From assembly GCA_013360585.1 (NCBI GenBank), contig JABWBH010000043.1, positions 1 to 39,812 on the forward strand: DNA of 39,812 nucleotides. Reading direction: 5' to 3'. The notes under the pieces were generated by a model that was not told the origin of the DNA, did not search any database, and worked only from the letters and a program-made list of their open reading frames with translations. The stretch comes from Phycisphaerae bacterium (lineage in GTDB: Bacteria > Planctomycetota > Phycisphaerae > UBA1845). A program made the position numbers and the translations under genes. Below, in pieces: positions 31,601 through 32,208 of this stretch; position 1 is the first letter of the stretch, and every line of letters begins with the position of its first letter.

Positions 31601-31717
31601 GTCAGTAATCCTGAAAAACAATGCTGAATGCAGAATGAAGAATGCAGAATGTTACTCACCTGATCCGAGGATTCAACGAATCCTGCATACTTGTTCCCTT
31701 GGAGAAGGCCCTTTCCC

Positions 31718-31773
31718 TCGCGGTCAATACCCGTTCAACCTCGAGCACTCTTCTCTATCGCGGTCAATACCCG
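31718..31773. repeat. 16-bp direct repeat at the 3' end of the four-helix-bundle gene
   Basis: TCGCGGTCAATACCCG occurs at 31718-31733 and at 31758-31773, 40 bp apart, spanning the stop codon of the four-helix-bundle gene. This suggests a local duplication or a recombination scar. Confidence 0.75.
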
Positions 31774-32106
31774 CACGATCGCGTCCGCTTCCTTCAAGAT
31801 CTCGCGCCGTCGGGTCATCGGCAAAATGCCGGCCTTGCCGATCAAGCGCAACCAGTACAGGGTTTCTTTCGCTTCGGCTCTTGCGATGTTGATTCGTCTG
31901 ACAAATTCCCTTTTGGAACTCGCCGCCTGCGCCTCCTCAACATTGGCGCCCACGCTCGTTCCCGATCGCAATACTTGCCTCGCAAATATTGCTCCTTCGT
32001 TTGACTTCGGGATTGCCCGTCCCACCTTTATGATTCGCAAGGCGAACTTCAACGTGCGCTCGGCAATGTCCCGATCCGCACCCTTGTTCTCGGGTTCGCA
32101 CTGCAT
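31735..32106 (-). CDS. Four-helix-bundle protein (23S rRNA intervening-sequence protein family)
   Basis: A 123-residue protein. RTLKFALRIIKVGRAIPKSNEGAIFARQVLRSGTSVGANVEEAQAASSKREFVRRINIARAEAKETLYWLRLI is the family pattern: helix 1, then R(S)GTSVGAN..EA....S..EF....IARAEA.ET.YWL. Members are encoded in spacers within 23S rRNA genes of some bacteria, and the fold matches Avd, the accessory protein of diversity-generating retroelements. The biochemical role of free-standing copies is unknown; nucleic-acid binding is likely. The ATG lies inside the last flanking heptamers (GGATGCA GTGCGAA), so the first residues MQCE come from the repeat. It sits between atpG and atpD in the operon's direction. 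Confidence 0.87.
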   Translation of the reverse strand: MQCEPENKGADRDIAERTLKFALRIIKVGRAIPKSNEGAIFARQVLRSGTSVGANVEEAQAASSKREFVRRINIARAEAKETLYWLRLIGKAGILPMTRRREILKEADAIVRVLTAIEKSARG

Positions 32107-32208
32107 CCTTCATTCTTCACACTGCATTCCACCAGTCTTCACGCTGCATTCTTCACGCTGCATTCTTCACGCTGCATTCTGCATTCTGCATTCTTCATTC
32201 GCCATTCA
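32100..32208 (-). repeat. Heptamer array, about 16 units
   Basis: Starting at the atpG stop codon, the minus strand reads GAATGGC, GAATGAA, three GAATGCA, then GCGTGAA alternating with GAATGCA, GACTGGT, a one-base slip, and GAATGCA, GTGTGAA, GAATGAA, GGATGCA, GTGCGAA. The period is 7 throughout except for the slip. Confidence 0.9.

Follow-up and report, generated by a model that had tools for sequence, protein, structure and literature searches.

The gap between atpG and atpD in the window, that is, the whole 39.8-kb stretch of DNA analysed here, holds a composite element that consists of a four-helix-bundle (FHB) gene and two inverted arrays of 7-bp repeats. The FHB gene lies in the loop of a ~30-bp stem that the heptamer arrays can form, and the element is probably IVS-like: a unit that is gained, lost and exchanged whole, and that may be excised by RNase III and spread with the help of the cell. 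Sequence comparison reveals the layout itself, its generality in the sampled loci, purifying selection on the ORF, and, at fixed sites, presence or absence among relatives and differences of whole units.

The minus strand of the window carries the atp operon with atpA, atpG and atpD, and ~600 bp separate atpG from atpD. The relevant features are as follows.

33101..33202, minus strand: ORF-less inverted heptamer hairpin of the GAATGGC / GAATAAC type in the atpA-atpG gap (lag-7 scan, RNA fold)
32209..33096, minus strand: atpG, the upstream neighbour of the FHB cassette
32137..32214, minus strand: upstream heptamer array of the GAATGCA/GAATGAA type (32137-32213 in the lag-7 scan; paired arm 32182-32214)
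31735..32106, minus strand: FHB gene (four-helix-bundle, S23 / 23S rRNA IVP family; PF05635, TIGR02436), 123 aa
31619..31651, plus strand: downstream heptamer array, the inverted partner arm (lag-7 segment 31620-31651)
30152..31600, minus strand: atpD, the downstream gene, with its start (about 31600) placed from the ORF translation
30040..30145, minus strand: ORF-less weaker inverted heptamer pair of the AATGACA/GAATGAG type in the gap after atpD (26-nt arms, 81% complementary)

The 123-aa ORF scores 75.2 bits against PF05635 (cut-off 33.8) and 88.8 bits against TIGR02436 (cut-off 24), and the two arms (31619-31651 and 32182-32214), each of 33 nt, are 91% complementary and separated by 530 nt. 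These values bear out the first-pass annotation, which had described an FHB gene between inverted GAATGCA-type arrays in this gap. That annotation had also seen no transposase, and indeed the ORF list gives no further nameable ORF within the element, whose gene belongs to PF05635 and is not a transposase. The upstream arm overlaps the atpG stop codon, the FHB start codon is found by eye inside the degenerate last upstream heptamer, and the downstream arm ends 18 nt ahead of the atpD start codon. In the predicted RNA fold of the cassette, the two arms pair and thereby enclose the entire insert (z -4.74; 0/20 shuffles equally stable). The AlphaFold2 model of the FHB protein consists of four helices with a mean pLDDT of 91.9. 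A Foldseek search with this model places the S23 structures 2RLD and 2GSC, which have five chains each, at ranks 1-10 (E 2e-7 to 7e-4), followed by plant pectin methylesterase inhibitors and then by chains of the DGR complex/Avd.

What kind of element is this? The window element combines the features of a 23S rRNA IVS, namely an S23/PF05635 ORF, stem-forming terminal inverted repeats and heptameric repeats. It is located in the atpG-atpD gap and not in a 23S rRNA helix, and window positions 29800-34000 have no Rfam match. Given that it would work like an IVS but is located outside 23S rRNA, we classify it as IVS-like rather than as an IVS proper.

The same layout recurs around FHB genes of many bacteria. 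FHB loci were drawn from the order (PF05635 in 86/114 genomes), the phylum (151/294), named genomes (80 loci, with record titles of many phyla) and putative viral contigs, in which the window protein itself finds no relative and a wider FHB profile finds 35 loci. For each locus, inverted repeats between the 300-bp flanks were compared with percentiles of mismatched pairs; 75 of the 80 named loci had flanks of at least 150 bp and were scored. The flank arms exceed 95% of mismatched pairs in 23/31 loci of the order, 25/30 of the phylum and 62/75 of the named genomes (shifted controls, 3/55). In the pooled set of 200 unique FHB genes, which is biased to high-scoring family members and includes some close relatives, the 95th percentile is exceeded by 172 and the 99th by 136, compared with 10/156 and 3/156 shifted controls; 28/200 are armless by the 95% criterion and 64/200 by the 99% criterion. 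The median best lag-7 score is 15.5 around FHB genes versus 5.0 in controls. The best lag is 7 in 111 and 14 in 17 of the 200 FHB loci, and in the 159 controls it is 7 seven times and 8 twice. A minority of FHB loci has octamer arrays, with a best lag of 8 in 22/200.

The two arms of a locus belong together. In 47 of the 57 loci (out of 200) that have strong arrays on both sides, the heptamers of the two arms are at a distance of 0 or 1, for which the null value is ~4%. The heptamer sequence varies by locus, and no arm sequence is common to the FHB loci. The median arm is 33 nt long, and the upstream arm read in the sense direction contains 34% G and 13% C (136 arms). The register of the arms is definite, with an identity of 0.88 that falls to 0.69 at the better of the 7- and 14-nt shifts, a difference that is inflated because the best register was chosen. 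Five plasmid FHB loci also have arms, and one plasmid FHB gene lies between ribonucleotide reductase genes, opposed to its neighbours. On the Anabaena sp. 90 plasmid pANA02 (L323), an FHB cassette is found between cas6 and cas4 of a type I-D CRISPR operon. A candidate cassette-level transposition between two Calothrix plasmids was rejected, since the two have a block of 3.6 kb in common and not the cassette as such. A crude test for a 23S rRNA context with four motif strings gave no match at the FHB loci.

The window FHB protein represents a divergent subfamily with the motif GANVEEA, and this subfamily tends to occur with a particular heptamer core. Among the 170/200 arms that score at least 13, with the subfamily set by a text rule and with p-values that ignore relatedness, 7-periodic GAA is found in the upstream arm of 23/29 subfamily loci of the order versus 1/24 canonical loci (p 2e-8); outside the order it occurs in 7/22 subfamily loci (p 0.003 versus canonical), and overall in 10/140 canonical loci. 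At the level of genomes, GAATGC arrays are present in 25/41 genomes with a subfamily FHB (E below about 1e-7) versus 4/39 without, and in 29/58 genomes with any PF05635 gene versus 0/22 without. The reversed array pattern yields 4 matches in G059 and 0 in the other relatives' genomes. Over 13 independent pairs, FHB and arrays differ the same way in a mean of 6.4 and the opposite way in 0.7, with no difference in 5.9, and the tree-based association is marginal (median p 0.07). The two Bosea genomes with FHB arms of the GGCAGTC type contain 22 and 11 matches to such arrays, counting those of their own cassette, and six other genomes contain 0-2. The exact Nostoc pattern is matched once in its genome, and the Bosea result is not repeated there. 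These counts are consistent with a partial link of FHB subfamily to heptamer core. The first-pass annotation had supposed a trans-acting enzyme that reads the heptamers; such an enzyme would have to account for a heptamer that varies among loci.

How does the element behave at its own site? A search of 114 genomes of the order with the window protein matched 68. AtpG was found in 74/80 relatives, and 73 atpG-atpD gaps were compared, with one contig-edge match left out and 2/73 relatives having no atpD on the contig. An FHB gene is detected in 15/73 of these gaps, always in the operon direction, and is drawn from families f1, f4 and f8. The gaps are filled, ORF-less, remnant or empty: as judged by eye, those of G041 and G075 hold pieces of an FHB gene between heptamers, and those of G015 and G022 hold bare heptamers. 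Gaps of 719-1301 bp with no FHB gene detected are found at L069, L077, L084, L085, L090, L096 and L100. FHB presence needs nine changes on the AtpG tree, at least six of which fall on well-supported branches (shuffled mean 13.9). In the FHB tree, which also took in nine further FHB copies beside atp genes and is weakly resolved at many forks, 9/11 f1 copies of the atpG-atpD gap form a clade (88/83) with G001 and G038 outside, and the G086 FHB (f4, beside atpA) groups with f8 copies. Given this clade and the outliers G001, G038 and G086, vertical descent, together with loss, may account for much of the distribution at the atpG-atpD site and exchange for some of it.

Two comparisons between close relatives concern the element as a whole. 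By AtpG, G001 is the nearest relative of the window genome (95.6% versus 89.7% for G003). Its FHB gene, frameshifted as judged by eye, has 49% identity over residues 13-90, and its arms are of the GAATTGC/GAATAAC type and not GAATGCA; the gene and both arms are thus unlike those of G000, G002 and G003 in the same gap. The flanks of the site align at 85-90% between two sister species, of which G058 carries a cassette and G054 has a short heptamer-free gap. The first-pass annotation had called for a search for such an empty site in close relatives, and G054 provides it. In the atpA-atpG gap, G058 has a cassette with a canonical-subfamily FHB and G054 has its downstream array alone. Inspection of the G054/G058 junctions by eye reveals no target-site duplication, and this contrast of two genomes is compatible with gain or loss alike. 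The atpA-atpG cassette of G058 (L368) belongs to another FHB subfamily, has GGCTAAN-type arms and is located one gap upstream of the atpG-atpD cassette. On contig C1 of G050, FHB genes of the same subfamily occur on both sides of atpG (1927842-1928171 and 1929201-1929536).

The mobile unit envisaged by the first-pass annotation therefore stands in part. The element comes and goes, as indicated by the 15 filled gaps, the nine tree changes, the G054/G058 pair, the remnants and G001, but no transposition event or intermediate was seen in the comparisons made. The relatives are not all alike at this site, which agrees with the annotation, and the host genome offers no other flanked FHB copy, which does not. 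Its sole other PF05635 gene, on contig C56, is interrupted by a stop codon and lacks significant arms (arm score 11.5 versus a 95% null value of 14.0).

Heptamer pairs also occur in the absence of an FHB gene. The lag-7 scan of the window detects four segments (score at least 11), all inside the atp operon, namely the two cassette arms, one arm in the atpA-atpG gap and one after atpD. The RNA fold of the hairpin at 33101-33202 has a z of -2.54, with 2/200 shuffles equally stable, and that of the pair at 30040-30145 is no better than shuffles (z -0.56). The latter pair directly follows the atpD stop codon, and three successive atp gaps thus have inverted heptamer pairs, the third weak. In the 4.24-Mb host genome, the pattern GAATNNN x3 + GAAT has 23 partly overlapping matches and its backward form 0, and GAATGC-type arrays have 16 matches versus 0 for the reversed control. 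Host-genome arrays without an FHB gene are scattered, and in the 15 places read they are mostly single or short pairs.

The ORF-less pair of the atpA-atpG gap, whose arms are weak (scores 11.5-14.5), is GAATGGC/GAATAAC in G000 and G001, GAATGCA in G003 and AGCTGCC in G002. A second ORF-less hairpin site, which we take to lie upstream of a sugar-epimerase-like gene, has GAATGCA in G000 and G003 and other heptamers in G001 and G002. Both arms of the ORF-less hairpins change together between congeners, with flanking genes that are still alignable. Where hairpins are dissimilar between species, same-side arms score 4 to 16.5 and arms within a hairpin 11.5 to 28.5.

The cassette occupies a defined position, and its ORF is maintained by selection. 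The upstream array starts at most 10 nt from the stop codon, or overlaps it, in 40 of the 53 genes (out of 200) that were scorable by an upstream co-directional ORF and an array, and uniform placement predicts 19. Outside the atp loci, the FHB gene is co-directional with both neighbours in 90 cases and opposed to both in 25. The median dN/dS is 0.13 (47/180 pairs with finite dS), with 0.08 for G000-G003. These low values indicate that the FHB ORF is under purifying selection and that the FHB protein matters. Two roles considered for the heptamers were discarded: they are not enriched as all-frame stops (inward stops in 22/57 versus 24.5 shuffled) or as suppliers of start codons (25 versus 26.7 shuffled). 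Stops read outward through the heptamers number 18 versus 11.6 shuffled.

Pairing at the RNA level was addressed through the mismatches of the arms. In FHB-sense RNA, a bias to G:U is absent: 129 mismatches are G:U and 165 are A:C, a difference in the opposite direction (p 0.04), and the counts by locus are 40 versus 47. Co-directional operons give 71 versus 85 and opposed ones 29 versus 30. The atp loci alone lean to RNA pairing, with 15 G:U versus 5 A:C (p 0.04). As there is no overall G:U excess, the test lends no support to general selection on RNA pairing.

We propose the following mechanism for an IVS-like element outside rRNA. The element fills an operon gap from the upstream stop codon to a point before the downstream start codon and leaves both neighbours intact. 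Such elements occur in many phyla, the gene and both arms are probably gained, lost and exchanged as one whole, and the ORF-less heptamer hairpins of other gaps resemble gene-free counterparts. In the transcript, the stem may serve as an RNase III substrate, by analogy with the 23S rRNA IVS, and the insert would be cut out and hence tolerated. The FHB protein, whose family has pentameric members and an Avd-related fold, is a candidate for the element's own factor, acting as an adaptor on the hairpin or its copy, and the enzyme that copies or moves the element would be supplied by the cell.

Three other explanations deserve consideration. The element could be a miniature mobile element at the DNA level. 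The arrays would then be terminal inverted repeats, forming a hairpin or cruciform, on which a recombinase or transposase of the cell acts. The FHB protein would play an accessory part, and the ORF-less hairpins would correspond to non-autonomous copies, the relation in which REPINs are supposed to stand to RAYTs. The polarity of neighbouring arrays fits this explanation, since arrays less than 400 bp apart, counted at the listed places only (78 arrays), are convergent in 14 cases, divergent in 2 and on one strand in 5. The co-occurrence of GAATGC arrays with FHB genomes, the Bosea matches and the lack of an overall RNA wobble signal point the same way. However, the arms have no sequence in common, the G054/G058 junctions display no target duplication, the phylogenetically controlled association of FHB genes and arrays is marginal, the exact Nostoc heptamer is matched once in its genome, and co-directionality with the operon is unexpected for a DNA transposon. 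We consider this explanation unlikely. Alternatively, the host may select an intercistronic hairpin for mRNA processing or differential expression, with the FHB gene as an old resident that is inherited vertically and often lost. Such selection would suit the heptamer pairs in three consecutive atp gaps, the third being weak, the places that congeners keep while the sequence changes, the single clade of nine f1 copies and the STRR hairpins between hupS and hupL (PMC2670836). It leaves unexplained the arms that enclose FHB genes at unrelated sites in many phyla, the operon-opposed insertion among ribonucleotide reductase genes and the joint difference of gene and arms in G001, and it is quite unlikely in our judgment. 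Finally, replication slippage only, with passive growth of 7-nt arrays in intergenic DNA and an incidental FHB link, could draw on the over-representation of heptanucleotide repeats in many bacterial genomes (PMC4692102, PMC4679880). Slippage does not produce a matched pair of inverted arrays around the members of a single gene family, and the excess of arms at the 99% level (136/200 versus 3/156) and the heptamer identity within each pair speak against it. The paired inverted layout contradicts this reading, which is highly improbable.

The IVS-like reading can be extended to a pan-bacterial two-part system, an extension that is speculative and that we regard as doubtful. FHB cassettes, with the 23S IVS as the rRNA-inserted case, would be the gene-bearing part, and ORF-less hairpins, including STRR, the gene-free part. 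A pentameric Avd-like protein would bind the arrays and recruit a cellular reverse transcriptase, and the excised hairpin RNA would be copied into other heptamer hairpins, a process that would keep arms matched and swap cassettes at fixed sites. One layout joins two long-standing puzzles, the role and origin of the IVS ORF and the heptanucleotide repeats of bacteria. It also frames testable questions about the enzyme that cuts the stem, the ligand of the protein and the joint change of the arms, and it provides a simple sequence rule for finding more such elements in genomes.

Known systems share parts of this anatomy. Heptamer hairpins are described in cyanobacteria, including the 7-bp STRR hairpins between hupS and hupL, and in Xanthomonas, heptamer repeats in Nostoc (PMC2670836, PMC4692102) and TAACTGA repeats in Beggiatoaceae (PMC4679880). 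The STRR and Xanthomonas/Nostoc repeats resemble the arrays described here in having 7-bp units and hairpin-capable inverted pairs, some of which are inside operons, but their descriptions in these sources proceed without an FHB gene, and 'S23' has no match in the searched text of PMC4692102. The heptamer reported for Xanthomonas campestris, the species whose gene Xcc0516 corresponds to the S23 structure 2GSC, is GGGAATC (PMC4692102). Among the matches listed in the literature searched, which is mostly open-access, FHB genes tied to inverted heptamer arrays outside rRNA were not found. REPINs and RAYTs likewise combine dispersed extragenic inverted repeat doublets with a cognate protein gene, but RAYTs are tyrosine transposases, and within each REP class the sequence is conserved (PMC3116915), whereas no catalytic domain is known in the FHB protein and the heptamer is variable.

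The likeness of PF05635 to Avd has been pointed out (PMC10053308). The FHB model is similar in fold to Avd (PDB 4DWL, 8UB7), with a TM-score of ~0.74 to chains of the Avd/DGR complex, but the Foldseek E values are weak (0.03-0.09) and rank just below the plant pectin methylesterase inhibitors. Avd acts together with a reverse transcriptase and with template and variable repeats, whereas the neighbours of the FHB gene are atpG and atpD. The 23S IVS of Coxiella burnetii is 428-444 nt long and has 28-bp terminal inverted repeats, an S23p ORF in the loop and tandem heptameric repeats (GACAGAT) before this ORF (PMC4990558). It is located in helix 45 of 23S rRNA, and RNase III cleaves its stem; an older idea cited in the same source regards IVSs as mobile elements with the ORF as a mobility component (PMC4990558). 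The Coxiella IVS is inserted in rRNA and excised by RNase III, and its S23p ORF is described as being in reductive evolution (PMC4990558), whereas the window element is placed between two operon genes, would be excised by analogy and has an ORF under purifying selection. Nevertheless, with a PF05635/S23 gene, closing repeats of ~28 bp and heptamers, the Coxiella IVS has the same anatomy as the window element.
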